Assembly: GCA_022749815.1 (NCBI GenBank)
Contig: JAKIWV010000004.1
Span: forward strand, 62,001-126,000
Length of the DNA stretch: 64,000 bases
Direction: 5' to 3'
DNA from: Thermoplasmata archaeon
GTDB lineage: Archaea; Thermoplasmatota; Thermoplasmata; Lutacidiplasmatales; UBA184
A model generated the notes under the pieces. That model ran no database searches. It was not told the origin of the DNA and was given only the letters and a program-made list of their open reading frames with translations. This document shows, piece after piece, positions 2,513 to 18,578 of this stretch. Every line of letters starts with the position of its first letter. Positions within the stretch are counted from its first letter, which is position 1. The position numbers were made by a program, and so were the translations under genes.

Positions 2513-3241
2513 ATGGCCGAGCCGCCGTGGGTCTTGCACGAGGGGGAGGGGTTCCGGCGCGAGCTCGAGAGGTTCAAGCTCGCGAATCATCCCTTCAAGC
2601 GGCATCCGTTCTTCCAAGAGATGGAACGCGGGACAGCCCCCCGCGCGGTGGTCCATCGTTGGGCCGCTCAATTCTACCCGTGGTTGGCCTGCGTGCCGCT
2701 GGCGATGGCCGAGCGATTCTCAAATTGCTCGTGGGAACCCAAGTACGACCGGTTTCGGCGCATGATCCTGGACCAGCTCGTCGAGGAAGCCGGGGACCCG
2801 AAAGGGAAGGCGCGAGGCCACCCCGAGCTTTGGCTTCACTTCTGCGAGGGATTGGGCCTCCCTCGGGAGAAGGTCCACGCAACCGCTCTGCTGCCGTCGA
2901 CCATGGTCGCGATCGATGATTTCCTCTACATCAATCGGCAGGAACCCTTCTACGTCTCGGCCGGAGGCTCTTCCGAGCCGCCGAATGTGGAGCTCTGCCA
3001 GCGGCTCCTTCCAGCCTTCCGGAGGCACTACGGCGTCGATGACGATCACCTGGCGTACTACTCCCTCCACGTCACCGCGGACGAGGAACACAGCCGGTTC
3101 GTGGGAGAGATGGTGGCGGCCTTCGCGGACGCACCCACCGTTCGGCATCGGATGTGGGACGCAATGCTCCGGGGGTTCGCGTTGCACCGATTGTTGATCG
3201 ATGGGGCCATCGGAGCGGTCGACGGCTCGCCTCAAGGTTAA
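2513..3241 (+). CDS. TenA/PqqC/CADD-like heme-oxygenase-fold dimetal oxidase
   Basis: EEAGDPKGKARGHPELW ... YYSLHVTADEEHSRF (H-x3-D-x2-H), helical TenA/PqqC-like layout. Confidence 0.72.
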   Translation: MAEPPWVLHEGEGFRRELERFKLANHPFKRHPFFQEMERGTAPRAVVHRWAAQFYPWLACVPLAMAERFSNCSWEPKYDRFRRMILDQLVEEAGDPKGKARGHPELWLHFCEGLGLPREKVHATALLPSTMVAIDDFLYINRQEPFYVSAGGSSEPPNVELCQRLLPAFRRHYGVDDDHLAYYSLHVTADEEHSRFVGEMVAAFADAPTVRHRMWDAMLRGFALHRLLIDGAIGAVDGSPQG

Positions 3242-3245
3242 ATAT
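3238..3245 (+). promoter_or_regulatory. TATA box (TTAAATAT) of the aro/trp supra-operon
   Basis: AT-rich octamer in high-GC context overlapping the preceding stop codon; centre 27-28 nt upstream of ATG 3269. Confidence 0.6.
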
Positions 3246-3268
3246 CGCTCGGGTGGTCTGAACGCTCG

Positions 3269-3340
3269 ATGACCGTCGCGGCTTTGGTCGACGACCTTCG
3301 GCCGTCCGGCCTGCGAGCGGTCACGCCCTGGTCCTGGTGA
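3269..3340 (+). CDS. putative leaderless leader peptide MTVAALVDDLRPSGLRAVTPWSW (Trp-Ser-Trp-stop)
   Basis: ATG ACC GTC GCG GCT TTG GTC GAC GAC CTT CGG CCG TCC GGC CTG CGA GCG GTC ACG CCC TGG TCC TGG TGA, upstream of aro/trp operon. Confidence 0.5.
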   Translation: MTVAALVDDLRPSGLRAVTPWSW

Positions 3341-3436
3341 AAGGGGAGCGCCCGGTCGGCGCCACCCTCCGACACTCGTTCTGAGCGGTGCGTCCGCCGG
3401 TCGCTTCCCCCGCGGTGAACACAAGCGAGGAGAAGC

Positions 3437-4186
3437 ATGTACGGAAAACAACTGAGGTTGAGAAGGATCTTCCCGGGAGACCGCCGGCTCTTCTCCGTCC
3501 CGCTCGACCATTCGGTATCGATGGGACCGATCGACGGGCTCGAAGAGATGCCGACGCTGGTCGCTGAGCTTCAGCGAGCGGGCGTCGACTTGGTCATCGT
3601 TACGAAGGGAGCCGTTCGCGGGCTCGTGCCGGTCCTCGCCCCCCGCACTCTACTCGGCATCCACGTGTCTGCGTCGACGAGTCTGAATCCGAACTCTGAC
3701 CGAAAGGTCCTCGTCGGCAGCGCGGAGGAGGCGGCCGCGCTCGGGGCTGACCTTCTCTCCGTTCAAGTGAACTTCGGCGTCCCGGACGAGGGAGACATGC
3801 TCCGGGACCTCGGGGTGGCCGCCGACCAATGTCGCGCGACCGGGCTTCCGCTGCTGTGCATGGCCTACGTCAAAAAACCGAACGGCGGCACCCCGGACGA
3901 AGTCCGCCACGCCTGCCGAGCCTCCGCAGACCTCGGCGCCGATATCGTCAAGACCTCCTATCCTGGATCACTCGAGGAATACCGCCGGCTCGTGCGAACG
4001 ACGCCAGCACCAGTGCTCGTCGGGGGCGGGAGTCGTCTCGAGGACGACGACGCCTTTCTAGCGTTGGTCCGCGAGACCGTGACCGCGGGGGCCGCAGGAA
4101 TCTGCATCGGTCGGAACTTATTCCAGCGTCGCCCGGTCGAGACCTTTGCGAAGCAAGTTGCAGCGATCCTACACGGGAGCACATAG
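3437..4186 (+). CDS. aroA': 2-amino-3,7-dideoxy-D-threo-hept-6-ulosonate synthase (DhnA/class I aldolase-like, AroA')
   Basis: LFSVPLDHSVSMGPIDGL...VSASTSLNP...KVLVGSAEEAAALGADLLSVQVNFG...DIVKTSYPGS...PVLVGGGSR; next to AroB'. Confidence 0.9.
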   Translation: MYGKQLRLRRIFPGDRRLFSVPLDHSVSMGPIDGLEEMPTLVAELQRAGVDLVIVTKGAVRGLVPVLAPRTLLGIHVSASTSLNPNSDRKVLVGSAEEAAALGADLLSVQVNFGVPDEGDMLRDLGVAADQCRATGLPLLCMAYVKKPNGGTPDEVRHACRASADLGADIVKTSYPGSLEEYRRLVRTTPAPVLVGGGSRLEDDDAFLALVRETVTAGAAGICIGRNLFQRRPVETFAKQVAAILHGST

Positions 4187-4195
4187 AGGACCGCT

Positions 4196-5236
4196 GTGTC
4201 GCTCGATCGGATCGTCGTCGCGCTCTCGTCCCCCGAACCCGAGGTCAATCATTCGATCCTGTCGCGGGCCCGACGACGGGGCTTTCGACGCTTCACCTCG
4301 GTCGATGCCCCGGGGCTTCCTCCCCAACCGGGAGAGGTCTGGTACCGCTCCACACCAGACGGTTTCCAAGAACTCATCGGTGACTCGCCTTCCCGTTCCC
4401 CTGTCGTCCGGCTCTACAGGGTCCGTGGTCCCGGGGAGCTTGCGCCGGTCGTCGAGGCCCTAACGCGCGGCGAGGCGTCGGCGGTTCGCTGGGGGGGCGA
4501 GCGCGTGATCCCGCTCGAGACGTTGGTCGCCGCGCGCAGCGCGCGCATGACGCTGTGGGTAGTCACTGCCGAGCCGTCTGAGATACCGGCGTTCCTGGGG
4601 GCTCTCGAGCACGGCGCCGATACGGTGGTCGTTGAGGTCTCAGCGACGGAGACCGTCGACCTTATCGAGCGACGCCTCGAGCAGCTTCCGGCGACCTTGC
4701 AGTGGGAGAGAATTCCGGTTCGGGCGGTCACCCCTGCTGGCACCGGGGACCGTGTGATCGTGGACACCACCTCCCTGCTCGAACCCGAGGAAGGGATCCT
4801 CGTCGGCAGCGCAGCGGCGTTCCTATACCATGTAGCAAGTGAAGCCGTCGGTTCGCGCTACACTCGCCCTCGGCCGTTTCGGGTGAACGCCGGAGCGGCG
4901 CACCTGTACACGCTCCTCGCGAACGGCGAGACCCGATATCTGAGCGAGCTAGTCCCGGGCGACTCGATATTGGTCGGTAGCCCACGAGGGGCGTCTCGCA
5001 GCGTCCGGGTAGGTAGGATCAAGATCGAGCGTCGCCCCCTGCTGCTGATCGAAGGGGAGTTCCAAAACCGGCGATACACCGTGTTCCTCCAGGAGGCGGA
5101 AACGGTCCGGCTCACCACAGACGTCGCGCCGGTGGCGACGACCGATCTTCAGCCGGGGGCGACCGTTTGGGGTGTGACTCTCCCCGCCGGTCGACACCTG
5201 GGCGTCGCGGTGGAGGAAAAGATCGACGAGCGATGA
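4196..5236 (+). CDS. aroB': 3-dehydroquinate synthase II (archaeal AroB')
   Basis: EEGILVGSAAAFLYHVASEAVGSRYTRPRPFRVNAGAAHLYTLLANGETRYLSEL signature; GTG start. Confidence 0.92.
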   Translation: MSLDRIVVALSSPEPEVNHSILSRARRRGFRRFTSVDAPGLPPQPGEVWYRSTPDGFQELIGDSPSRSPVVRLYRVRGPGELAPVVEALTRGEASAVRWGGERVIPLETLVAARSARMTLWVVTAEPSEIPAFLGALEHGADTVVVEVSATETVDLIERRLEQLPATLQWERIPVRAVTPAGTGDRVIVDTTSLLEPEEGILVGSAAAFLYHVASEAVGSRYTRPRPFRVNAGAAHLYTLLANGETRYLSELVPGDSILVGSPRGASRSVRVGRIKIERRPLLLIEGEFQNRRYTVFLQEAETVRLTTDVAPVATTDLQPGATVWGVTLPAGRHLGVAVEEKIDER

Positions 5237-6750
5237 CGACCCATCCTCCCTTGCTCATCGCATGCTGCCCCGGACGCACGGTGGCGGCGGTGAAGGCCCA
5301 ACTCGTCCGGGCCGCCGAAGCGGGAGCCGACCTCGGCGAGGTTCGACTTGATCGATTCTCCCCCGACGAGCGCCAGAGGTTGGAGAGCCTGTTCCCGGCC
5401 CCCATCCCCCTTGTGGCGACCCTTCGATCCCGAACAGAGGGGGGAGAGGGCCCCGACGCCTTCCACGAGCGTGCGCCCCTTCTAGAATACGCGGCTCGGT
5501 TACCGTTCCGGTTCCTCGACCTGGAGCGGGCTCGCGACGGCGCCCTACTTGAGGCGCCAGAACCGGGCCCCGGACTGACGGCGTCGTTGATCGTCTCCTC
5601 GCACGTGGCCGAGTCGGTCTCGATCGAGGAGGTGTGCCGTTTGCTCGAGTTGCCACGTCCCCTCGGCGCCATCGCAAAGGTCGTTCTTCCCTGCGACTTC
5701 GGAAGAATGTGGGCTGAGCTGCTCCCCCAACTCTCCCCCGTGGGCGCCTTCGAGCCATACGTGCTTCACACGACGGGCCCGACGGGGCCGCTGTCGCGTG
5801 CCTGGGCGCGCCGACTGGGGATGTTCGCGGTCTACGGCGCCCTACCCGCCTCTACCCCATCCGCTGACATTGACACGGTTGAGCCGGCTCAACTGCCGGT
5901 CGATCGGCTGAGACGGTACGAGGATCACGGGGGAATGGGTCACCTCTTCGCCGTGGTCGGCCATCCGATCCAACACTCGCGGTCGCCGGACATCCATTCG
6001 TTCTGGTTCGAGAAAGAGAAGCGAAACGGCCTCTATCTAGCGCTGGACATGGCCAATGCCGAATATCTCGTCGCCAGCGTCGGACCCCTGGCTTCGGGCG
6101 GATTCCGCGGGCTCAACGTCACCCATCCGTGGAAACAAATGGCGCTACGCCTCGCAAGCCGCGTCACTCCCGCCGCTGAGCTCGCCGGGTGCGCGAACAC
6201 GCTTACCTTCGACGAAGGGGGAGTCTCCGCGGAGAACACGGATGTCGCGGCGGTCCGTCGGAGACTCTCCGAACTCAAGGAATCCGGGGCGTGGGATGAG
6301 TCCCCTGTCGTCGTCCTCGGGAGCGGCGGGGCCGCCCGTTCGGCGCTGGCCGCCGCCACCACGCTCGGGAGCCGTGGGATAGTCGTCGCACGGAGAGCGG
6401 AGGCCGCCGCTGGGCTCGTCAAGCAATACGGAAGCACCGTTGGCGTTGGATCGGACCTCACGCCCGCTCGCCTCGTCATCCATGCGACCCCTGCGGGTAG
6501 GGAGGGGGCCCCCAATCTCGATCTCCCATGGGCGGGGGCGATCGGACCGTCGACCCACGTTCTCGATTTCGTCTACGCGCCCATTCACCCGTTCCTTCGA
6601 CGGAGGGCCGAGGAGCAGGGCGCCTCTTACGAGGATGGGTCGAGGCTGCTGGTGTACCAGGCCGCCGAGAGCTATGCGCTCTGGTGGGGCTCCGCCCCCT
6701 CGGCCTCCTTGCAAGAAGCGGCGTTGAGGGAGGTACTGTGCGCGGAGTAG
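5233..6750 (+). CDS. aroDE: bifunctional 3-dehydroquinate dehydratase (type I) / shikimate dehydrogenase
   Basis: AroD part MTTHPPLLIACCPGRT...SSHVAES...AIAKVVLP; AroE part FAVVGHPIQHSRSPDIHSFWF...GLNVTHPWK...CANTL; ATG overlaps aroB' stop (ATGA); ORF-track start is an overextension. Confidence 0.93.
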   Translation: MTTHPPLLIACCPGRTVAAVKAQLVRAAEAGADLGEVRLDRFSPDERQRLESLFPAPIPLVATLRSRTEGGEGPDAFHERAPLLEYAARLPFRFLDLERARDGALLEAPEPGPGLTASLIVSSHVAESVSIEEVCRLLELPRPLGAIAKVVLPCDFGRMWAELLPQLSPVGAFEPYVLHTTGPTGPLSRAWARRLGMFAVYGALPASTPSADIDTVEPAQLPVDRLRRYEDHGGMGHLFAVVGHPIQHSRSPDIHSFWFEKEKRNGLYLALDMANAEYLVASVGPLASGGFRGLNVTHPWKQMALRLASRVTPAAELAGCANTLTFDEGGVSAENTDVAAVRRRLSELKESGAWDESPVVVLGSGGAARSALAAATTLGSRGIVVARRAEAAAGLVKQYGSTVGVGSDLTPARLVIHATPAGREGAPNLDLPWAGAIGPSTHVLDFVYAPIHPFLRRRAEEQGASYEDGSRLLVYQAAESYALWWGSAPSASLQEAALREVLCAE

Positions 6751-7613
6751 GAACGAGCTCCGGAGCGGTCACGATCGTCAATGCCCTGCCGACCGGCGTC
6801 GGGTGTGCGGTTGCCGTTGCGCTTCCGGTCCACGCCGAAATCGAACTGCATGCGGACCCCGCGCTGAACTCACAGCGGATCCGGCTCGAGCGCGGGTCCG
6901 ATTCGACCTTAGTTCGAGAAACGCTCGCCGTCGGATTGTCCCGATACGGGTCGGGCGGCCAGTACTCGGGCGCGCTGCGAATCGAGTCCATCGTGCCGGT
7001 CGCGAAGGGGCTCAAGAGTTCCTCGGCGGTCAGCGGAGCCGTCCTTCGCGCGGTCGCAGGCGCATTCCATCAGTCGCCCGGCCCGGAAGAGATCGCCCGG
7101 CTTGCAGCGGAGGTCGCCCAGCAGATCGGGCTCAGCGCCACCGGTGCGTTCGATGACTGTCTGGCCGCGGTGCGGGGAGGCGTCGCGCTGACGGACAATT
7201 CCCGACGGACCTCGCTCCAGCCAGCTCCATTCGACTTCGACTTGCGAGTAGTGTTGTGGATCCCGAGGGGATCCCATGCCCCTTCGACCACCTGGTCCGA
7301 GCGCTTTCGGACTGAGATCAGCGCCGGGCAAGCCTCCGCCGAGGCGGCCCGGGCCGGTCACTGGGCCGAAGCCATGACCCTCAACACGGAACTCGTCGAG
7401 CGGGTCATGGACTACGATTACGGCGCTCTGCGATCGGAGTTGGCTCGAAACGGGGCCGTCATGTCCGGAGTCAGCGGGATGGGCCCCACTCTGGCCGCCT
7501 TCGTTCCCCCCCCGAACGCGGCTTCGGTGGCTCTGCATCTTCCGTCCGACCTCGGAGTCGTCAAGATCGTCGAGCTGCGCCGAGCCGAGGGCGTAGTAGC
7601 GGGGGTCCCATGA
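6738..7613 (+). CDS. aroK: shikimate kinase, archaeal GHMP type
   Basis: GTG start inside the longer ORF; SIVPVAKGLKSSSAVSGAVLRAV (GHMP motif), GVSGMGPTLAAF. Confidence 0.88.
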   Translation: MRGVGTSSGAVTIVNALPTGVGCAVAVALPVHAEIELHADPALNSQRIRLERGSDSTLVRETLAVGLSRYGSGGQYSGALRIESIVPVAKGLKSSSAVSGAVLRAVAGAFHQSPGPEEIARLAAEVAQQIGLSATGAFDDCLAAVRGGVALTDNSRRTSLQPAPFDFDLRVVLWIPRGSHAPSTTWSERFRTEISAGQASAEAARAGHWAEAMTLNTELVERVMDYDYGALRSELARNGAVMSGVSGMGPTLAAFVPPPNAASVALHLPSDLGVVKIVELRRAEGVVAGVP

Positions 7614-8893
7614 CGGTGAAACGGATTCGGCCGGCCCGCATCCACGGCCGCATCCGGGCTCCGCCTTCGAAGAGCTACACCCATCGCGCACTCCTCGCGG
7701 CATTCTTCGCCGAAGCGCCGTGCGAGGTGGTCGGACCGCTCGACTCCGACGACACGCGGGCCACACGGAACGGGCTCCGGGTTCTGGGGGCGCAGGTCCG
7801 CCGGTCTCGCGACGGTTGGGTAGTGTCGCCGGGGCCCGGAGGAGCGCAGGTTCCTCAGGGAGCCATTGACTGCGCCGACTCCGGAACGACGCTTCGGTTT
7901 CTCGCGGCGGCGGCCGCGCAAGGCGGGAATCCCGTCCGATTCGGCGGGTCCCGCCGACTGGCATCTCGGCCGATGGAAGAACTGTATGGAGCGCTCCGTA
8001 CGCTGGGAGCCCGGGTGCAGACCCCGTCCAAAACCCGATGCTTGCCCTGCGTGGTCCGTGGACCGATCTCGCCCGGGCGAGTGGCGATCCGGGGAGACGT
8101 GAGCTCTCAGTTCACCTCTGCCTTGCTGATGGTCCTGCCACGATTGGCAGGCCGTTCTGAACTTCGCCTTGGCGGGACGACCGTTTCTCGACCGTACATC
8201 GACGCGACGTGCGCCGTCCTCGACGAGCGAGGGATCCATGTCCGCCGTAGTCGAATCGGCTTCGTTACCCATGGTCCCCAGAGGTACCGCTCCGGCCGGA
8301 TTCGGGTACCGGGCGACGCGTCGTCGGCGGCCTATCTGTGGGCGGCTGCCGCCGCGACGGCCGGATCGGTCGATGTCGAAGGAGTGCCAGACGATCTTCC
8401 TCAGGCCGATCTGGCGATCTTGCCCATCCTAGCCGCCATGGGGGCTCGCGTCCGACGGGCCGCGCGCTTCGTACGAGTGGCCGGCCCATTGGTGGAGCCG
8501 ATCACCGTCGACCTCACCGATGCGCCCGATCTGTTTCCGCTCGTCTCAGTCCTCGCGGCCCTCGTACCGGGCCGTACGAGTCGGCTCACGGGTGCACCTC
8601 AGATCGCCTTCAAGGAATCCGATCGCCGGATTGAATCCGCCCGACTGGCCCGGGCTTTGGGCGCCCGGGTCATCGCGGCACCGTCACGCCTGGAGATTCG
8701 GGGGTCCCTCACCCCGCGCCGTCTGGACTGTCCGTCGCTGCGGGATCACCGACTGGTGATGAGCGCGGCGGTGGCCGGGCTCTCGACGAACGGTACGTCT
8801 AGGATCGGCCGAGCGGAAGCTGTCACGAAGTCCTTCCCTGGATTCTGGAACGCGCTCGGCGCGCTGACAGAGGGCGGAGGATTGGTACGATGA
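7610..8893 (+). CDS. aroA: 3-phosphoshikimate 1-carboxyvinyltransferase
   Basis: PPSKSYTHRALLAAFFAE, DCADSGTTLRFLAA, GDVSSQFTSALLMVLP, IAFKESDR. Confidence 0.95.
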   Translation: MTVKRIRPARIHGRIRAPPSKSYTHRALLAAFFAEAPCEVVGPLDSDDTRATRNGLRVLGAQVRRSRDGWVVSPGPGGAQVPQGAIDCADSGTTLRFLAAAAAQGGNPVRFGGSRRLASRPMEELYGALRTLGARVQTPSKTRCLPCVVRGPISPGRVAIRGDVSSQFTSALLMVLPRLAGRSELRLGGTTVSRPYIDATCAVLDERGIHVRRSRIGFVTHGPQRYRSGRIRVPGDASSAAYLWAAAAATAGSVDVEGVPDDLPQADLAILPILAAMGARVRRAARFVRVAGPLVEPITVDLTDAPDLFPLVSVLAALVPGRTSRLTGAPQIAFKESDRRIESARLARALGARVIAAPSRLEIRGSLTPRRLDCPSLRDHRLVMSAAVAGLSTNGTSRIGRAEAVTKSFPGFWNALGALTEGGGLVR

Positions 8894-9975
8894 TGAGTGC
8901 TGGCAGCGGGTACCGGCTTACCATCGTTGGGTCGAGTCACGGGCCAGAAGTGGGCGTTTCCATCAGCGGCGTGCCGGCAGGAACGGTGGTTGCGCTGGAT
9001 CTCATCCAGGCGCACCTCGACCGCCGACGGCCCGTGGGCCGTCGGTTGGCTACGAAGCGACAGGAGGAGGATCGGTTGGTCGTGGATTCAGGCATTGTCG
9101 CTGGTATCGCGGATGGTCGTGATATCCGCATGCACGTCGCCAACGAGGACATCCAACGCGGGCCGTATGACCGTCTGCGAGACACTCCGCGGCCTGGCCA
9201 TGCGGATTTTCCGGCCCGGGTGCGATACGGGCCCGATGTCGACCTGTCCGGGGGCGGGATATTCTCCGGCAGAATGACAGTCGGGCTCGTGATCGCCGGA
9301 GCGATCGCAAGCCAGATGCTCCAACGTCGAGGGGTGGACATCTCATCCTTCACACGGAGCGTCGGCGGGATTCTCGCGACGGTGGGCGCCGACCTGTCGA
9401 TAGGGGAGATTCGGCGACGACGCGACATGAACGAGGTCGGCTGCCCGGACCCGGAAGCAGCAGCCCGCATGGAGGAAGCGATCGCAATGGCCCGAAAGGA
9501 CGGGGACAGCGTTGGAGGGACCATCGAGACCCGGATCGTAGGATGCCCCATCGGTCTAGGCGAGCCGTTCTTCGATTCCATCGAGAGCACCGTAGCCCGT
9601 CTAGCCTTCTCTGTACCGGCCGTCAAAGGAATCGAATTCGGATCCGGGTTCCGTGCCGGGGAGATGCGCGGGAGCGCCCACAATGACCCGTTCGCGTGGG
9701 AAGGAGACCGCGTCGTGACTCGCACGAACAACGCGGGGGGAATCCTCGGCGGGTTGGCCACGGGCATGCCGATCGTCTTTCGGGTGGTGGTCAAGCCGAC
9801 GTCCTCCATCGCTCGACCTCAACAAACGGTCAACCTGGTCACCCACCGGACTCAGGAACTCGTCGTGACTGGGCGCCACGACCCGTGCATCGTTCCACGG
9901 GCCGTGGTCGTCCTGGAGTCGGTAGCGGCCTGCGCGGTCGCCGACCTGGCCATTTCCGGAGGATTCTTGCCATGA
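8890..9975 (+). CDS. aroC: chorismate synthase
   Basis: GSSHGPEVGVSISGVPAG, GHADFPARVRYGPDVDLSGGGIFSGRMT, GSAHNDPF, NNAGGILGGLATGMPI. Confidence 0.95.
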   Translation: MMSAGSGYRLTIVGSSHGPEVGVSISGVPAGTVVALDLIQAHLDRRRPVGRRLATKRQEEDRLVVDSGIVAGIADGRDIRMHVANEDIQRGPYDRLRDTPRPGHADFPARVRYGPDVDLSGGGIFSGRMTVGLVIAGAIASQMLQRRGVDISSFTRSVGGILATVGADLSIGEIRRRRDMNEVGCPDPEAAARMEEAIAMARKDGDSVGGTIETRIVGCPIGLGEPFFDSIESTVARLAFSVPAVKGIEFGSGFRAGEMRGSAHNDPFAWEGDRVVTRTNNAGGILGGLATGMPIVFRVVVKPTSSIARPQQTVNLVTHRTQELVVTGRHDPCIVPRAVVVLESVAACAVADLAISGGFLP

Positions 9976-11036
9976 GCGATTCCGACCAGATCCCGAGCGC
10001 GATTTTGGGTGCGAGCGGCTACATCGGCCAGCACTTCGCGCGTCTCTTGGCCCGACATCCTCGATTCGCCCCGCCCCGACTGGCAGGGGGCGAACGGTCA
10101 GAGGGGCAACGACTCGAGGAGGTCTGGCAGCTTACCGAGGAGCCTCCGAGCGAGCTCGCAAGGGAGCGGCTTCGACGACTCTCGCCGGCGCAATTGCAGC
10201 GCGAGGGTGTGCGGATCGTATTTGGAGCGATTCCTTCCGGACTCGCGGGTCCTGTCGAGACCGAGTGCCGGCGCCGCGGGATCCACGTATTCTCGAACGC
10301 CGCGGACCATCGGTTGGACCCGGATGTCCCGCTCCTGGTTCCGGAGGTCAATGCCGCCCACTTGCGCGCGCTCGCCCGCCGGGCGCGCGGTCGTCCGCTG
10401 CTCGTGACCAATCCGAACTGCACTGCGACGGGTCTCGTGCTGGCCCTGGCGCCGGTATGGGCGCTCCTGTCGCCCCGGGCGGTGCACGTGAGCACATATC
10501 AGGCGCTTTCGGGGGCGGGTTTCCCGGGCGTCGCCTCTCTTTCGATCGCGGACAACGTTGTCCCGTACATCCCTCAGGAAGAGGAAAAGGTCGCGGCAGA
10601 GTCGAACCGCATCCTCGGAGTGGTCCGAGGCGGACAAGTCATCTCCCGGCGGGTGCCGTTCGTGGCCAATTGCGTTCGGGTGGCGGTGCGCGAAGGCCAC
10701 CTCGAAGCGGTCACGCTTGAGGCCCAGCGCCGCCCTACGTTGACCGCGCTAACCCAGGCCTGGAGGCAGTTCGATCCCCTCCGGCTGCTCTCACTGCCTA
10801 CGGCTCCACATCCCCCGGTCGAGCTGCGACCCCAAGCCGACCGCCCCCAACCAAATCGAGATCGTTGGGCTGGTGAGCCCGAGCCCGCGCGTGGCATGGC
10901 GGCGGTTGTGGGCCGGGTCCGTTGGGACCCGCCGTTCCTCCGGTTCTTCGTCCTGTCCCACAATGCCGTCAGGGGAGGGGCCGGCGGCTCAGTGCTGAAC
11001 GCGGAGCTCGCCGACGCGCTGGGCCTAATCATCTGA
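9972..11036 (+). CDS. asd: aspartate-semialdehyde dehydrogenase
   Basis: AILGASGYIGQHFARLLARHPRF, LVTNPNCTATGLVLALAPV; ATG overlaps aroC stop. Confidence 0.92.
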   Translation: MSDSDQIPSAILGASGYIGQHFARLLARHPRFAPPRLAGGERSEGQRLEEVWQLTEEPPSELARERLRRLSPAQLQREGVRIVFGAIPSGLAGPVETECRRRGIHVFSNAADHRLDPDVPLLVPEVNAAHLRALARRARGRPLLVTNPNCTATGLVLALAPVWALLSPRAVHVSTYQALSGAGFPGVASLSIADNVVPYIPQEEEKVAAESNRILGVVRGGQVISRRVPFVANCVRVAVREGHLEAVTLEAQRRPTLTALTQAWRQFDPLRLLSLPTAPHPPVELRPQADRPQPNRDRWAGEPEPARGMAAVVGRVRWDPPFLRFFVLSHNAVRGGAGGSVLNAELADALGLII

Positions 11037-11052
11037 GGGGGTCCCGAGCAGC

Positions 11053-12369
11053 GTGACCCTAAGGCATCCCGTCGTCGTAAAGTTCGGCGGCGCGACGCTC
11101 TCGAGCCCGGCCCGGGTGATTGGATGGATCCGACGCCGTCACGACGAGGAGGGCCCGACCGTGATCGTACTGTCCGCCAGGGCGGGAGTAACCGATCTAC
11201 TGGGGTCCCTGCTCATCTCACCTAGGGCCCGCGCAGCCCACGCTCGAGTGCTCGCGCACATTACCGACCTCCACCCGGGACTCAGTCGGGTCGGTCGGAT
11301 CCATCTCGCGCGGCTTCATCGTCTGGTTCAGGAGATGGAGGGTCGGGGGAAGATCAGCCCGCCCGAGGGCGACCGGATTGTCAGCCAGGGAGAAAGGCTC
11401 TCCGTGTACTGGCTGCTTCCACAGTTACTCGCCGCCGGGATTCCGGCGGTCGGCGTTGAAGCCGACCGCCTCGGAATCGTCACCGACAACGAGTACGGCG
11501 CATCGACCATCCTGGTGGCCCGTTGCGCGGCGCCTGTGCGCCGGACCTTGAAGCGTTGGCTGCGGGACGGCCGGGTACCCGTCGTTACCGGCTTCATCGG
11601 TCGGAGCCTCCAGGGGCGAGTCACCACCTTGGGCCGGGGTGGCTCCGACTACACTGCGACGGCGTTGGGGGCGATGCTCGGAGCGTCCCGCGTCGAGCTC
11701 GTGAAGCGCGGGGTCCCCGTCTTGACGGCTGACCCTCGTTGGATACCCGCGGCCCGACCGATCCCTCGATTGTCCTACGTGGAGGCAGAGGAGCTCGCCC
11801 AGTTCGGCGCCAAGATTCTCCACCCACTTACCGTGGAGCCCGCCCGCGACTCGAACGTGGAGATCCGAGTAGTCCCGCTCAACGATCCCGGGGCCCTCAC
11901 CGTCATTGGGCCCACTTCGGGGCCTGGAGGGATGCGTGCCTTGACCCTGCTCTCGCCGGTCTGCCTCCTGCGGATCCGGGTGCCCGGAGGCCGACAGCGA
12001 CCGGGCGTCGTGGCGGAGGTTTCCCGACGCCTCACCTCCGCGGGCGTCAACATCATCACGCTGTTCACGTCCTCGACTCTCCTGAGCGTCGTGCTTGAGT
12101 CGACCCGCGCGTCGGACGGGCGGAAGGCGTTGCAACCGCTCGTCGACCGCGATCGTATGGTCCTGGAGGGCCCGTACAAGGTGGGTCTACTGACGGCGAT
12201 TGGCGAGGGGGCGCTCCGGGATGTGGCCCGGTTGCCTCTGGCCTCGCTCCGGCGGGGAGAGGGGCTCAGCGCCACCCCGCGCTCGGTCACTCTCGCCGTT
12301 CCGGTTCGAGAGGCCCGGCGGACGCTGGTATCGATGCATCGCGCACTGGTCGAACGGAGGCGCGCGTAA
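11053..12369 (+). CDS. lysC: aspartate kinase
   Basis: VVKFGGATLSSPARV, GRGGSDYTATALGAMLGA, LTADPRWIPAARPIPRLSYVEAEELAQFGAKILHP, C-terminal ACT-like part. Confidence 0.92.
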   Translation: MTLRHPVVVKFGGATLSSPARVIGWIRRRHDEEGPTVIVLSARAGVTDLLGSLLISPRARAAHARVLAHITDLHPGLSRVGRIHLARLHRLVQEMEGRGKISPPEGDRIVSQGERLSVYWLLPQLLAAGIPAVGVEADRLGIVTDNEYGASTILVARCAAPVRRTLKRWLRDGRVPVVTGFIGRSLQGRVTTLGRGGSDYTATALGAMLGASRVELVKRGVPVLTADPRWIPAARPIPRLSYVEAEELAQFGAKILHPLTVEPARDSNVEIRVVPLNDPGALTVIGPTSGPGGMRALTLLSPVCLLRIRVPGGRQRPGVVAEVSRRLTSAGVNIITLFTSSTLLSVVLESTRASDGRKALQPLVDRDRMVLEGPYKVGLLTAIGEGALRDVARLPLASLRRGEGLSATPRSVTLAVPVREARRTLVSMHRALVERRRA

Positions 12370-13562
12370 TGGATCCGTGGCCGGAATTCGTCGCAGCGTC
12401 GGAGCGGAGCGACTGTGCCGGGTACTTCGAGCGGGGTCTCGCTCCCGGCCTCGCGGGGCGGTGGGCGGCTTCCTTCACGGAACCGGACGATACGTGGACG
12501 CTTCACCCTCGGGACACTCCCGAGGATCTCGACGCGCGAACCCGGCGTCAGCTGCGGGGCGACGCGGGACGGACGCTCATCGGATACGTCGGATTCGACG
12601 CGACCTCAATGTTCGAGCCGCTGGTCGCGAGGGCACCCCGGGGTAGCCCCTTTCCCTTGGGCGAGTGGGCCCTCGTTCCTCGGCTGCGCTTTCGACGCGT
12701 GGAACGTCCCGGGTCGCCGAATCGGCACGTCTCGCATGGCGAGCTCCCAACGCCTCTCGTTGACACGTTACCGCGCGTACAGTTCGAACGCAGCGTCGGG
12801 AAGCTTCGCGAAGCCGTGGGTGCGGGCGAGGCGTTCCAGGTCGTGCTCAGCCACCGGCGGACGTGGCATCGGCCGGAGGATCTGCTCGACCGACTCACCC
12901 TCCTTAGGGCACGCGAGCGGTTCGCGTACTTCTACTACCTCAAGTTCGGGGACCGCGAGATTTTGGGGGCGAGTCCCGAGTCGGTCCTCGAAACCCAAAA
13001 TCACCGGGCGTACCTGAGCCCGATCGCGGCGACGCGACCTCGGCGCCGCTCGGGCGGGAGGGCGGCCCTCCATCGAGACCCCAAGGAGCTTGCGGAACAT
13101 CGGATGCTCGTGGACCTGGCCCGGAACGACCTGGGGCGGGTTTCAGTGCCGGGGCGCGTCCGATTGGTCTGGGAGGAACGTCTCGAACGGTTCGCCCGTC
13201 TCGAGCATCTGATCAGCCGAGTTGAAGGCACCCTTCCCCCGTCCGTGGGGCCGTGGAGCGCGCTCGCGGCGACTTTTCCCGCGGGCACCGTGAGTGGCGC
13301 CCCGAAGATTCGGGCGACGCACCTTCTGCGGCGAGAAGAACGGACGTGGCGCGGTCCGTACGCCGGTGCCGTCGGTCTGATACGAGGGAATGGCGACGCG
13401 GCCTGGGCCCTCGCGATCCGGGGTGCGTTCATCCATCGGGACCGGCTGCACACGGCCGCCGGCGCGGGGATCGTGTGGCATTCGCAACCGCCGCGGGAGT
13501 TCCATGAGACCCTCCTGAAGCTCGAGGAGCTCGAGACCACTCTGGTCGGGAGCCGACCGTGA
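12369..13562 (+). CDS. trpE: anthranilate synthase component I
   Basis: GEAFQVVLSHRR, LGASPESVLE, HRMLVDLARNDLGRVSVPG, TFPAGTVSGAPKIRA. Confidence 0.9.
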   Translation: MDPWPEFVAASERSDCAGYFERGLAPGLAGRWAASFTEPDDTWTLHPRDTPEDLDARTRRQLRGDAGRTLIGYVGFDATSMFEPLVARAPRGSPFPLGEWALVPRLRFRRVERPGSPNRHVSHGELPTPLVDTLPRVQFERSVGKLREAVGAGEAFQVVLSHRRTWHRPEDLLDRLTLLRARERFAYFYYLKFGDREILGASPESVLETQNHRAYLSPIAATRPRRRSGGRAALHRDPKELAEHRMLVDLARNDLGRVSVPGRVRLVWEERLERFARLEHLISRVEGTLPPSVGPWSALAATFPAGTVSGAPKIRATHLLRREERTWRGPYAGAVGLIRGNGDAAWALAIRGAFIHRDRLHTAAGAGIVWHSQPPREFHETLLKLEELETTLVGSRP

Positions 13563-14140
13563 AGGTCCTGCTGGTCGATCACGAGGACTCTTTCGTCTAC
13601 AACCTCTACCAAGCTCTGAGGCTCCTCGGAGCGAGGGTCGACTGCGTGCGGTACACCGAACCGGTGGCCAGATCGGTGAGAGCCGACCCGGACGCGATCG
13701 TCTTCTCTCCAGGCCCGGGTCACCCCCGGGACCGCCGGGTGACGGGCCACGCCCGGCGGTTGCTAGCGCGCTGGGAAGGCGAACGATCATTTCTGGGCGT
13801 TTGTCTCGGGCACCAGCTGATCGGCGAGTTTTACGGAGGGCGCATCGACCGGGCGGACGCTCCGGTTCACGGGGAGACCGTGGAGGTCGAGCACTCGGAG
13901 GTTCCGCTGTTCCGCCGCGTACCGCGGAGGTTCCGCGCGGCGAGGTACCATTCCCTCGTCGTACGACGGGACGGATTCCCCCGAGTGCTGTCCGTGACCG
14001 CGTCGACGCGCCGGCACACGATCATGGCGCTCGACCACCGGACCCACCCGACGCACGGAGTTCAATTCCACCCGGAGTCGTACCTCACGCCGGCAGGGCC
14101 ACAGATTCTCCGCAACTTCCTCAGAGAGGCGCGACGATGA
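13559..14140 (+). CDS. trpG: anthranilate synthase component II (glutamine amidotransferase)
   Basis: VDHEDSFVYNLYQ, FSPGPGHP, FLGVCLGHQLIGEFYGG, HGVQFHPESYLTPAG; GTG start. Confidence 0.93.
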   Translation: MKVLLVDHEDSFVYNLYQALRLLGARVDCVRYTEPVARSVRADPDAIVFSPGPGHPRDRRVTGHARRLLARWEGERSFLGVCLGHQLIGEFYGGRIDRADAPVHGETVEVEHSEVPLFRRVPRRFRAARYHSLVVRRDGFPRVLSVTASTRRHTIMALDHRTHPTHGVQFHPESYLTPAGPQILRNFLREARR

Positions 14141-15186
14141 CGGGCGAACTGCTGGATCGGTTGGTGGCCCGGAGGGAACTAGGCGAAAATCAGGTGCGCG
14201 CCCTGGTGGCACGACTGGTCGACACGACGACGAATGATCTAGAACGGGCGGCGTTGCTGGTGGCCTGGCGAACCAAGGGCGAGACCCCCGAGGAGGTGGA
14301 GGCGTTCGCACGAGAGCTGCGCCGGCGATCGGTCGCTTTTCCGGGACCGCGGGCCGATGGGGCCGTCGACCTGTGCGGTTCGGGAGGCGCGCGAACCCCT
14401 TCGTTCAACGTAGGCACCGTCAGCGCATTTGTCGTCCGGGCCGCCGGGGCTCCCGTCGCGAAGCACGGAAATCGGAGCGCGCGGGGCACCCTGAAGGGGT
14501 ACGCGGGGTCGAGCGACCTGCTGGAGGCCCTCGGGCTGCCGGTGACTACGTCGTTGGAATTTGCCCGCGCAAGCTACCGGCGGTTCGGCATCGCCTTCCT
14601 GCACGCCCCGCTCTACCACACCGCCACGAGCGCCGTGATGCCCGTGCGTCGCGGGTTAGGAATCCCCACGATATTCAATCAACTCGGACCGCTGACGAAT
14701 CCGGCCTCGGTCCCATTCCAGGTCGTCGGATGTCCGGAAGCGTCCGTCGCGGAGCGGGTCGCCCGAATACTTCCAGAGCTCGGGGTACGGGCGGGATTGG
14801 CCGTTGCGGGGAACGGCGGGACGGACGAGTTCTCCCCGTCGGGCGCGTCCCGTTGCGTGATCTGGCTGGACGGTCGCCGGAGTCGCCGAACGGTCCGCGC
14901 GGCCGACCTGCTCGAAGCGGAGGATCGACGGGGCCCGTGGGGACCTCTGCCGGCCTCTGCCGCCGCCGAAGAGGCACAGCGTTTGCTCGCCGGAGGGGGT
15001 GGGGCCAGGCGCGGCAGCATTCTGCTCACCAGCGGAGCCGCGCTGTGGGTTTCCGGGCGAGCGTCCGACCTTCGAGACGGGATCGTTCGGGCGCGACAAG
15101 CCCTCGACAATGGCGGGGCGCAAGCGCTGTTGCGAGCCGTCCAACGTCTCGCTCAGGACCATCATTGGGACGAGGCGGGGCGATGA
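14137..15186 (+). CDS. trpD: anthranilate phosphoribosyltransferase
   Basis: DLCGSGGARTPSFNVGTVSAFV, AKHGNRSARGTLKGYAGSSDLLEALG, GIPTIFNQLGPLTNPA. Confidence 0.93.
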   Translation: MTGELLDRLVARRELGENQVRALVARLVDTTTNDLERAALLVAWRTKGETPEEVEAFARELRRRSVAFPGPRADGAVDLCGSGGARTPSFNVGTVSAFVVRAAGAPVAKHGNRSARGTLKGYAGSSDLLEALGLPVTTSLEFARASYRRFGIAFLHAPLYHTATSAVMPVRRGLGIPTIFNQLGPLTNPASVPFQVVGCPEASVAERVARILPELGVRAGLAVAGNGGTDEFSPSGASRCVIWLDGRRSRRTVRAADLLEAEDRRGPWGPLPASAAAEEAQRLLAGGGGARRGSILLTSGAALWVSGRASDLRDGIVRARQALDNGGAQALLRAVQRLAQDHHWDEAGR

Positions 15187-15977
15187 CCGGCTTCTTGCGA
15201 ACCCTTTTGCCCCAGGTCACTGCGCAGATTCTAGACCCCAGATATCTGCGAGCGATTCCGACGTCCCCCTTCCACCGCGCTCCGAGCCTGCGCGCCGCCG
15301 TGAGGGGTGCGCCCGACGGATGGGCGGTGCTTGTCGAACGGAAGCACGAGTCTCCCGGTTCCGGAATGGCGCACCTCCCTACTCCGTCGCTCGACCTGTT
15401 TGTAGAGCAAACCCGGACGGGAGGGGCCGATGGGTTGTCCTGCCTTGCTACCGAACCTGCGTTCGGGGGTTCTCCCCGCGAGGTCGCGGAGCTCGCGCGC
15501 CGCTCGGGATTGCCGGTCCTGTTCAAGGATTTCGTCATCGATCCGATCCAGGTGGAGGCGGCCAGTCTCGCCGGCGCTGCCGCGATCCTCCTCATCGCGC
15601 GGTTGGAGACAGAGGGACTACTCCGTCGTCCGATCCAGGAGCTGGCAGCCGCCGCCAAAGCCCGTGGCCTGGAAGTGTTGCTCGAACTCCACCGTCCGGA
15701 AGAATGGCGATTGGCTGAGTCGGCAGCTCCCGACCTCATCGGGATCAATCTACGAGACCTCGACACGCTAGAGCTGCGGCCCGCGGTAGCGGAGTCGACG
15801 TTCCGGGCCGCCAACCAACAGTGTCCGGTGCTCGGGTTCAGTGGTGTATCGACTCCCACCGACGCCCTACGCTATCGCCGCTGGGGGGCCGACGGTCTTT
15901 TGGTCGGCACGGGATTCGCTCGGGCACGCAACCCGGCCGAGTTCCTCCGTTCGTTGAGGGTTCCTCATTCAGGTTAG
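15183..15977 (+). CDS. trpC: indole-3-glycerol-phosphate synthase
   Basis: LSCLATEPAFGGSPREVAELARRSGLPVLFKDFVIDPIQVEAASLAGAAAILLI, LIGINLRDLDTL, DGLLVGTGFARA. Confidence 0.92.
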   Translation: MTGFLRTLLPQVTAQILDPRYLRAIPTSPFHRAPSLRAAVRGAPDGWAVLVERKHESPGSGMAHLPTPSLDLFVEQTRTGGADGLSCLATEPAFGGSPREVAELARRSGLPVLFKDFVIDPIQVEAASLAGAAAILLIARLETEGLLRRPIQELAAAAKARGLEVLLELHRPEEWRLAESAAPDLIGINLRDLDTLELRPAVAESTFRAANQQCPVLGFSGVSTPTDALRYRRWGADGLLVGTGFARARNPAEFLRSLRVPHSG

Positions 15978-15981
15978 AACC

Positions 15982-16629
15982 ATGAAGACCTTCGTTAAGT
16001 TCTGTGGCCTGACCGAGCCGACTGCGATCGCCCTTGCCCCCGAAGGCGGTGCGGCGGGCTTCGTGATCGATGTTCCGGCATCTCCCCGAAGCCTAACGAT
16101 CGCGCAGGCTGTAGAGCTCGTCGGTCAGGTCCCACCCGGTGCCGAGGCGTGGGCAGTGGTCGTCGACCCCTCCACGGAGCTCATACGTCGCATCTTCGAT
16201 GACATCGGGGTCGACCGGATACAGGTCCACGGACGGATTCCGGAGGGGCTCGACTTCCTAGAGATCCACCACTTGGTCCCGTCGCTTCCGGTGCCCCTGA
16301 CGCCCGAAGCTGGTCCCCTCCCCGAACTACCACCCGCCGAATCGTATCCGCGGGTTCACCTCGACGGCGCCGGCGGACCGCTCCCCGGCGGCAGCGGTCA
16401 ACGACCGGATTGGGAGATGTGTCACACGCTTGTTCAAAAGGCGCCCGGCCGCAAACTCGTACTTGCGGGGGGCTTGACCCCGGAGAACGTCGGCGATGCC
16501 CTGACGACGGTCGGCCCGTGGGGAGTGGACGTATCCTCCGGCGTCGAGCACTCGCCGGGCGTCAAGGACCTCGCCCGGATGCGCGCCTTCCTCTCCGCCG
16601 TGGAGGCGTGGGAGAAGTCCCATGCCTAG
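15982..16629 (+). CDS. trpF: phosphoribosylanthranilate isomerase
   Basis: KFCGLTEPTAIALAPEGGAAGFVIDVPASPRSL, VQVHG-like IQVHG, LAGGLTPENVGDAL, GVDVSSGVEHSPGVKD. Confidence 0.9.
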   Translation: MKTFVKFCGLTEPTAIALAPEGGAAGFVIDVPASPRSLTIAQAVELVGQVPPGAEAWAVVVDPSTELIRRIFDDIGVDRIQVHGRIPEGLDFLEIHHLVPSLPVPLTPEAGPLPELPPAESYPRVHLDGAGGPLPGGSGQRPDWEMCHTLVQKAPGRKLVLAGGLTPENVGDALTTVGPWGVDVSSGVEHSPGVKDLARMRAFLSAVEAWEKSHA

Positions 16630-17791
16630 GCGGTTCGGAGCTTACGGCGGCGCCTACGTCCCGGAGACCCTTGTTCCCGCGCTCGGTGAGCTGGAGGCGG
16701 CGTGGCGCTCCTCCCGACGGGACCCGGTCTTCCGAGCGGAACTTATCCGCTGGTCTCGTACGTTGGGGGGCCGGCCCACGCCGCTCTACCACGCGGAGAA
16801 CCTCACGCGCCGGGCCGGGGGCGCCCAGATATGGTTCAAGCGGGAGGATCTGCTTCACGGAGGGGCGCACAAGTTCAACAACGCGCTCGGACAGGGACTA
16901 CTCGCCCGCCGCATGGGCAAGCGACGGTTGATCGCTGAGACTGGGGCGGGTCAGCACGGGGTCGCGACGGCGATGATCGGTGCGGCGCTCAACCTCCCGA
17001 CAGAGGTGTACATGGGGACACGCGATATGAAGCGTCAGGCCCCGAACGTGCAACGGATGCGCCTGCTCGGCGCCACCGTACACCCCGTGACGTCGGGGGC
17101 CCGGACGCTGAAGGATGCGATCAACGAGGCATTGAGGGACTGGATCACTAACGTTCGGTCCACCCATTACGTGCTCGGTTCCGCGGTCGGTCCGCATCCG
17201 TTCCCGTCGATGGTCTGTGACTTCCAGAGCGTCATCGGCATGGAGCTCCGCTCTCAATCCCGCGCGCTGTGGGGACGACTCCCGGACCTCGCCGTCGCCT
17301 GTGTGGGGGGAGGCAGTAACGCCATCGGCACGTTCCATCCGCTGCTCCGCACTCCCGTACAGCTGCTTGGCGTCGAGGCCGGTGGCGCCGGCCGCGGTCC
17401 GGGGGCGTCCTCCTTGGTCTGTGGGACCCCCGGTATTCTACACGGGGCATTCTCGTACATCCTGCAGGACGCGGAGGGGCAGGTCCGGGAGACCGAGAGC
17501 ATCTCCGCGGGACTGGACTATGCGGGGGTAGGTCCTGAGCACGCGATGTTGCGGGATTCCGGACGCGTACGATACGTTTCTGTGCGAGATGCGCAAGCGC
17601 TCCAGGCATTCCACTGGGTTGCCCGAGACGAAGGAATCCTGCCGGCCCTCGAACCGGCCCATGCCGTTTACGCCGCGGTTCGGGCCGCCGCCCGGCTCTC
17701 CCGAACGAAACGGGTCGTTGTGACGCTCTCGGGTCGGGGGGACAAGGACCTGGAGGTGGTTCTCCGACATGACGCCGCCCAATCTCGCTGA
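16622..17791 (+). CDS. trpB: tryptophan synthase beta chain
   Basis: FGAYGGAYVPETL, FKREDLLHGGAHKFNNALGQGLLA, ETGAGQHGVATA, CVGGGSNAIG. Confidence 0.95.
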   Translation: MPRRFGAYGGAYVPETLVPALGELEAAWRSSRRDPVFRAELIRWSRTLGGRPTPLYHAENLTRRAGGAQIWFKREDLLHGGAHKFNNALGQGLLARRMGKRRLIAETGAGQHGVATAMIGAALNLPTEVYMGTRDMKRQAPNVQRMRLLGATVHPVTSGARTLKDAINEALRDWITNVRSTHYVLGSAVGPHPFPSMVCDFQSVIGMELRSQSRALWGRLPDLAVACVGGGSNAIGTFHPLLRTPVQLLGVEAGGAGRGPGASSLVCGTPGILHGAFSYILQDAEGQVRETESISAGLDYAGVGPEHAMLRDSGRVRYVSVRDAQALQAFHWVARDEGILPALEPAHAVYAAVRAAARLSRTKRVVVTLSGRGDKDLEVVLRHDAAQSR

Positions 17792-18578
17792 GGTTCTGGG
17801 ACGGAATCGGCGCGAACATCGAGGCTCGCTGCTCGTCTACCTGATGGTGGATGCCGCCCGGCGACGTCGATTGCCTTCTCTAGTCCGGGGGTGTTGGGAG
17901 GCCGGGGTGACCGGCATAGAGCTGGGCTTCCCGTTCAGCGACCCGATAGCGGACGGCCCCGTGCTCCAGGCTGCCGCCTCCCGGGCACTGGGCAACGGTA
18001 CTCAATGGAGTGACCTGCTCGGAGCGATCGGGGCGACCGCCGACGAGCTCCCGGTGGCCGTCATGACTTACGCTAACCCGGTGCTCCACCGCGGGCTTCG
18101 TCACGCGTGTCGGGCCATCGCGGCGGCGGGGGGCTCGGGCCTGATCGTCCCGGACCTCGCGCTCGAGGAAAGCGCTCCATGGGTACGGGCCTCACGCCGG
18201 GCGGGCCTTTCGCTCGTCCAGATGGGTTCCCCCGCGACGCCCGCGTCCCGTGTCCGCACCCTCGCGAGGAGCAGCTCGGGATTCCTCTACTTGGTCTCAC
18301 GGTTCGGGACGACCGGCCGAGGAGTTCGGGCGCCGGGGTCCCCCCTGAGGGTCCTTATAGGAGCAGCCCACGGAGTTTGTCCCGAGCTCCCCGTACTCGT
18401 CGGGTTCGGGATCCGGACGTCCGCTGATGTGACGCCGATCCGTCGAATGGGTGCGGACGGAGTCGTCGTAGGGACCGCAGTGGAGGAGATTCTTTCGGGG
18501 TCCACCGAACCCGCCCGACTCCTTCGGTACCTGCGCCGTCTGAGCCGGGCGATCGGCGCGCGAGGACCGGGCGACTAG
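17769..18578 (+). CDS. trpA: tryptophan synthase alpha chain
   Basis: VTGIELGFPFSDPIADGPVLQAAASRAL, VMTYANPVLHRG, GLIVPDLALEES, LVGFGIRTSADV. Confidence 0.93.
   Translation: MTPPNLAEVLGRNRREHRGSLLVYLMVDAARRRRLPSLVRGCWEAGVTGIELGFPFSDPIADGPVLQAAASRALGNGTQWSDLLGAIGATADELPVAVMTYANPVLHRGLRHACRAIAAAGGSGLIVPDLALEESAPWVRASRRAGLSLVQMGSPATPASRVRTLARSSSGFLYLVSRFGTTGRGVRAPGSPLRVLIGAAHGVCPELPVLVGFGIRTSADVTPIRRMGADGVVVGTAVEEILSGSTEPARLLRYLRRLSRAIGARGPGD

Follow-up and report, generated by a model that had tools for sequence, protein, structure and literature searches.

A conserved Trp-codon leader ORF before the aro/trp genes of one Thermoplasmata family: a candidate archaeal translational attenuator

Immediately upstream of the shikimate and tryptophan genes in the 64,000-nucleotide stretch of Thermoplasmata DNA that we analyzed (the window) lies a short ORF that ends in two Trp codons, and sequence comparison gives good support to a conserved Trp-codon leader-peptide switch ahead of tryptophan genes in one archaeal family. 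We think it likely that this leader controls the aro/trp operon as a translational attenuator that acts in cis through the ribosome and would sense charged tRNA-Trp. Control of the operon by a Trp-codon leader peptide had been suggested in a sequence-only reading of the window, and the suggestion gains support both from those tests that sequence can decide and from the linkage of the leader to trp genes.

The locus begins with a TATA-like promoter element read directly in the sequence, TTAAATAT (3238–3245, + strand), which, in agreement with the coordinates given in the sequence-only reading, overlaps the stop of an upstream pqqC/CADD-like gene (gene end 3241). The 23-codon ORF described there, MTVAALVDDLRPSGLRAVTPWSW followed by a stop, was found as stated at 3269–3340 (+ strand; ATG at 3269, again read directly) and is probably translated from a leaderless 5' end. 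It closes with the putative regulatory codons TGG-TCC-TGG (Trp21, Ser22 and Trp23; 3329–3337, + strand, with the Trp codons at 3329–3331 and 3335–3337) and TGA (3338–3340), and a GC-rich leader of 96 nt (3341–3436) separates this stop from the aroA' ATG at 3437. A scan of the same genome for TAAATA-N20-26-ATG-N36-66-TGA matched at three places, of which just one, the window uORF, is a short in-frame ORF whose end is rich in Trp; no second leaderless, TGA-terminated short uORF of such design was found by this pattern scan.

The first gene controlled in the proposed model would be aroA' (ADH synthase; 3437–4186, + strand), which matches NF005556 with 241.7 bits, at the cutoff of that model. It heads a supra-operon, aroA'-aroB'-aroDE-aroK-aroA-aroC-asd-lysC-trpE-G-D-C-F-B-A (3437–18578, + strand), for which the ORF list and NCBIfam matches give 15 genes in place of the 14 counted at first; these ORFs overlap or stand closely spaced on one strand, the last product being tryptophan synthase alpha, and we infer that the 15 genes are co-transcribed. 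The asd and lysC genes (9966–12369) are found within the operon, between aroC and trpE, in keeping with the archaeal route, where early shikimate synthesis draws on aspartate semialdehyde. The window ADH synthase has actinomycete relatives that are 38–45% identical (L060–L111), and it scores below cutoff against the BagB/FevI aldolase model of the bagremycin/ferroverdin pathways. The gene adjoining the aro operon on its upstream side (2513–3241) encodes a pqqC/CADD-like heme-oxygenase-fold protein, whose matches to the CADD (TIGR04305) and PqqC models are also below their cutoffs. Just upstream of the TATA box of this gene is a palindrome, AGGTTAACCGGCGAACCT (2449–2466), which is likely the operator of some regulator; palindromes of the AGGTT..C....GAACCT type take the corresponding position in those leader-less relatives that were examined.

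We collected AroA' homologues from related genomes and public genome contigs, the best relatives being Thermoplasmata MAGs, and read 320 nt upstream of aroA' at each locus, giving 79 distinct upstream regions; further loci added by a search with the motif itself brought the total to 56 distinct leaders. All of the genomes compared are MAGs, so that absence of the leader in one incomplete MAG is, taken singly, weak evidence. The uORF proved to be conserved upstream of aroA', a check that the sequence-only reading had named: besides that of the window there are 55 further distinct aroA' leaders in Lutacidiplasmatales-type Thermoplasmata MAGs, the 56 together spanning five genera, plus one leader before trpE. 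Among the regions reached by homology alone, 24 distinct loci have a TATA-like box at −195 to −215, and every one of them carries the uORF; conservation of the terminal Trp codons, also named there as a check, was likewise seen, with 23 of these 24 uORFs ending W-x-W. The exception (L049) ends GSW before the stop, its first regulatory codon having become GGG, which could be natural single-Trp variation or a mistake in the assembly. An in-frame ATG precedes the stop by 20–24 codons in all 55 leaders with the start in the sequence (by exactly 23 in 47 of them); it lies at −69 nt in 47 of the 55, no other nearby position exceeding 5, and the frame is preserved across uORFs of 20/21, 22, 23 and 24 codons, lengths that differ only in steps of three nucleotides. 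Nearly every leader has a TAAATA-type box ~29 nt upstream of its uORF ATG (−195 to −215 relative to aroA'). Among the 23-codon leaders, Trp is found at codon 21 in 45 of 47 and at codon 23 in 47 of 47, counts that are partly circular through the motif-selected loci.

We dropped the openness of the frame as evidence for the uORF, as the other two frames are open too in most leaders of this GC-rich DNA. That random frames stay open in such DNA would favor a non-regulatory explanation, a promoter followed by a chance ORF, but this explanation is already contradicted by the comparative data (fixed ATG position and terminal Trp codons, length changes in threes only, coevolving pairings, linkage to trp genes and relocation to trpE) and is in our view scarcely credible.

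The body of the peptide shows a different pattern from its ends. Residues 2–16 are essentially unconserved and without clear purifying selection, and the synonymous-substitution bias that had been predicted for the uORF did not appear in its body (dN/dS-like values of 0.76 for codons 2–14 and 1.83 for codons 15–20, from small counts); the elements retained are the start position, the frame and length, the terminal Trp codons and the stop. Kept codons in an otherwise free peptide fit codon sensing better than they fit a peptide with a function in its own right. The Trp residues at the extreme C terminus, adjoining the stop, and the nearly fixed length of 23 residues would favor a TnaC-like nascent-chain sensor, in which W-x-W at the exit responds to free tryptophan and not to Trp-tRNA charging; however, an arrest peptide needs specific tunnel contacts, so the free body, in which W-x-W alone is kept, counts against this possibility and makes it quite improbable.

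Beyond the uORF stop we distinguished four RNA elements on the + strand. Element A (3343–3355), the predicted 5' strand of an anti-sequestor, lies just past the stop and pairs with Element C, the switching strand (3397–3413), through 3343–3350/3402–3409 and 3352–3355/3397–3400, the A:C helix enclosing a variable inner hairpin (3357–3396) in the window fold. A GGGGA-GCG stem had been proposed here from sequence alone, and its 5' strand GGGGAGCG (3343–3350) does pair, but with CGCTTCCC at 3402–3409 and not with 3411–3419, ~9 nt off. Element B (3358–3362) is the local alternative partner of A, its GGCGC pairing with GCGCC at 3348–3352 (97% of cells paired in 33 leaders). Element D (3425–3436), GCGAGGAGAAGC, includes the aroA' Shine-Dalgarno AGGAG (3428–3432) and pairs with C in the fold model. 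There are consequently two partners each for A (B or C) and for C (A via 3397–3409, or D via 3403–3413).

Across the leaders, A comprises the first ~17 nt past the stop, typically cGGGAGGCGCCGGGAGG, with the complementary C, typically CCUUCUCGGCGUCUCCC, 75–90 nt downstream, and A:C is present in 52 of 55 minimum-energy folds. Coevolution of both A:C and C:D is supported by partner-swap tests on 33 non-redundant leaders, which accords with the covarying stems that had been looked for: the A:C energy was −29.7 kcal/mol, as against −27.7 ± 0.4 with partners swapped (P 5e-5) and −19.7 ± 0.6 with C shuffled, and the C:D energy was −12.6, as against −11.3 ± 0.4 with partners swapped (P 0.001). Pair counting gave a covariation score of 0.240 (0.200 ± 0.010 in shuffles, ≤0.185 with slid partners), with both-sided changes at 7 of 18 pairs. 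Compensatory changes in A:C were scarce, as A hardly varies in the largest genus, and the A:B pairs are nearly invariant across the 33 leaders; RNAalifold on the alignment preferred a local, extended A:B hairpin over A:C, perhaps because aligning the leaders blurs the long-range A:C pairing. A family-wide inner helix had compensatory changes at 3 of 5 pairs, the inner hairpin itself being poorly conserved. A long conserved helix around a variable hairpin would also be compatible with a leader RNA that binds a protein or a tRNA, as a riboswitch or T-box-like element, the uORF being incidental; given the poor conservation of the inner hairpin, the keeping of ATG, frame and Trp codons despite a free ORF body, and the lack of any match at 2700–4300 to Rfam families, including the bacterial Trp leader and T-box, to an E-value of 1, we regard this as very unlikely.

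The consequence of ribosome position was modeled by folding each leader minus the RNA covered by a ribosome, to ~+3 for a ribosome at Trp21 and ~+12 for one at the stop, these front-edge distances being bacterial values assumed for these archaea. In the predicted folds the mean openness of the Shine-Dalgarno was 0.47 with the ribosome at Trp21 vs 0.23 at the stop, falling from the first position to the second in 51 of 55 leaders (p 5e-10), and the drop of 0.275 in native leaders compares with 0.01–0.05 when A was shuffled (33 non-redundant leaders). In the window leader, the 6-nt Shine-Dalgarno segment had a mean openness of 0.94 at Trp21 vs 0.33 at the stop, and in its OFF fold 3403–3413 is paired with 3425–3436. 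The resulting polarity, with an open Shine-Dalgarno when Trp-tRNA is short, was not imposed on the calculation and agrees, as a product of predicted structure, with the need of a biosynthetic operon. A ribosome at Trp23 already masks part of A (openness 0.26), so that in the fold model Trp21 alone would give the ON state, and the strict conservation of Trp23 does not follow from the model; the second Trp codon may influence release or how long the ribosome stays beside the stop.

Based on these predictions we envisage a transcript that begins at the leader ATG or right beside it, giving leaderless initiation, and a ribosome that reads 20 variable codons before reaching Trp21-x-Trp23-stop. Were Trp-tRNA scarce, it would wait with Trp21 in the A site and its front edge at ~+3 from the first base of the stop, A (from +5) would be left free, and formation of A:C would keep the aroA' Shine-Dalgarno in D open (ON). 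Were Trp-tRNA plentiful, ribosomes would reach the stop, where a front edge at ~+12 would open or block the start of A; with A masked, C would be released to pair with D (OFF). After ribosome release A could close on B and C would thereby be kept on D, B perhaps acting either as a trap that holds A once the ribosome has left or as a folding intermediate. The ON/OFF polarity in the cell, and any polar effects on the downstream genes, would follow from this scheme.

The sequence-only reading had spoken of an attenuator, and here it calls for a correction: the Trp-codon leader stands, but with no terminator seen, translational control is more likely than classical transcription attenuation. A U-rich tract is absent, the longest T-run in the leader and gene start being 4 (53 leaders), and this lack of a U-tract or obvious intrinsic terminator argues for translational control. 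Transcription and translation are coupled in archaea, and the same leader-peptide sensor could have a transcriptional output, in which a ribosome on or released from the uORF would decide the exposure of the nascent RNA to FttA/aCPSF1, an archaeal termination factor, so that attenuation or polarity would be factor-dependent. Such an arrangement would leave a similar uORF and RNA anatomy, and the coupling would favor it; against it stand the leader without a U-rich tract and the C:D coevolution, which points at the Shine-Dalgarno, the buried segment being the aroA' ribosome site. We therefore consider a transcriptional output unlikely, and retain the translational attenuator as our working model.

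The distribution of the leader follows the tryptophan genes. Over 34 family genomes with resolved aroA' upstream regions, the leader is present at aroA' in 23 of the 26 that bear trpE/trpB and in none of the eight without trpE or close trpB (Fisher P 9e-6, relatedness ignored); six of these eight belong to one genus, and the other two (G024 and G029) to genus g5, in which the leader is otherwise common. In an additional set obtained via other loci, a close trpB was found in 0 of 8 leader-less genomes and 4 of 5 leader-bearing ones; the fifth of these is the MAG of L042, in which no trpB was seen. In genus g4, aroA' and the trp genes are separated. One g4 genome (G013) has an aroA' without the leader and a trpE preceded by a TAAATA box and a 23-codon ORF, MAAGPCHVSYDARPAMSSCAWGW, which ends AWGW before its stop and behind which strands A and C recur (A:C −32.8 kcal/mol; fold z-score −3.7). 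The other three g4 genomes with trp operons have no leader at aroA' or trpE. In three g4 genomes (L235, L236 and L237) the gene ahead of trpE carries repeated C-x2-C zinc-ribbon motifs, and, as no Trp leader stands before trpE there, some other control of their trp genes is likely. These comparisons suggest that the leader was lost or moved together with the trp genes.

In leader-less genomes aroA' mostly begins 6–46 nt after the pqqC-like gene. In trp-less genomes the pqqC/CADD-like gene is directly before aroA', and no leader was found before that gene. A close trpE and/or trpB is missing at L039, L041, L043, L044, L046, L050, L054 and L055, and also in G010, G015, G020, G024, G025, G028, G029 and G030. 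Relatives without close trpE/trpB are probably tryptophan auxotrophs, judging from gene content; they include the Lutacidiplasma silvani type genome (L046; PMC9287336), whose aroA' has no leader.

A search of 395 genomes of the phylum with model R1 at an E-value of 0.001 found no leaders outside the family, all 17 hits being in that of the window (f1), and 20 trpE loci from other Thermoplasmata families, inspected for Trp-rich uORFs upstream, offered nothing convincing. Matches to W-x-W-stop-GGGRG in other families (L112–L131, L134, L151, L157, L180, L181 and L186–L188) were discarded, those inspected lying inside coding DNA or having no TATA box and start.

Ribosome-mediated attenuation is a textbook bacterial strategy. 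In the broad sense of that term, a short ORF with codons of the pathway's amino acid is found in the operon leader (56 aroA' leaders and one of trpE), the presence of the leader follows trpE/trpB, including the relocation to trpE, and mutually exclusive helices chosen by ribosome position are indicated as far as prediction and comparative data go. Like the bacterial trp attenuators (E. coli trpL, and the trp leaders of Corynebacterium and Streptomyces; PMC1262725), the window leader combines a short ORF carrying paired Trp codons and mutually exclusive helices with trp genes behind them; unlike them, it has an archaeal host and an apparently leaderless uORF, and its output is predicted to fall on the Shine-Dalgarno. 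Two features set it apart from the classical class: the defining GC-rich terminator hairpin and U-tract before the first gene are absent (T-runs of ≤4 in 53 leaders), and the masking position is reversed in the fold model, in which the 5' strand A would be covered at the stop by the peptide-completing ribosome, whereas in E. coli it is the stalled ribosome that covers strand 1 and lets 2:3 form. The leader also resembles ermC-type translational attenuators, in that ribosome position on the leader ORF would pick the helices that hide or expose the next Shine-Dalgarno; the predicted C:D hairpin, formed when A is masked, and the C:D coevolution both agree with sequestration in the OFF state. The signal would, in contrast to ermC, be an amino acid read via codons and not a drug, and the stalled ribosome would leave the key strand free.

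The few known controls of archaeal trp genes are DNA-binding proteins, and many Crenarchaeota with such operons have neither known regulator (PMC6737238). TrpY of Methanothermobacter and Tar/TK0271 of Thermococcus are likewise systems in which aromatic amino acid supply controls trp/aro genes, but as DNA-binding transcription regulators, whereas the window leader would act in cis through RNA and the ribosome (PMC6737238). A tool paper mentions attenuation by uORFs in archaea too, in general terms (PMC10219788), and our search of the freely accessible literature on leader peptides, attenuators and uORFs found no precedent for an archaeal amino-acid leader-peptide attenuator. We lean toward regarding this leader as the first attenuator in Archaea to work through a leader peptide with amino-acid codons. 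In this reading a leaderless Trp-codon uORF would exert translational control over a whole aspartate/shikimate/tryptophan operon by a logic opposite to that of the E. coli trp attenuator, and would be confined, within the genomes searched, to one family and lost or moved with the trp genes.

If this is correct, codon-sensing attenuation would exist in archaea too, combined with leaderless initiation, and there would be a simple sequence signature by which more such leaders could be found. Archaeal ribosome stalling and transcription-translation coupling would become testable with reporters. For the hosts, uncultured acid-soil archaea known from MAGs, the leader would offer a clean example of a regulatory RNA element that is lost and moved along with its pathway.
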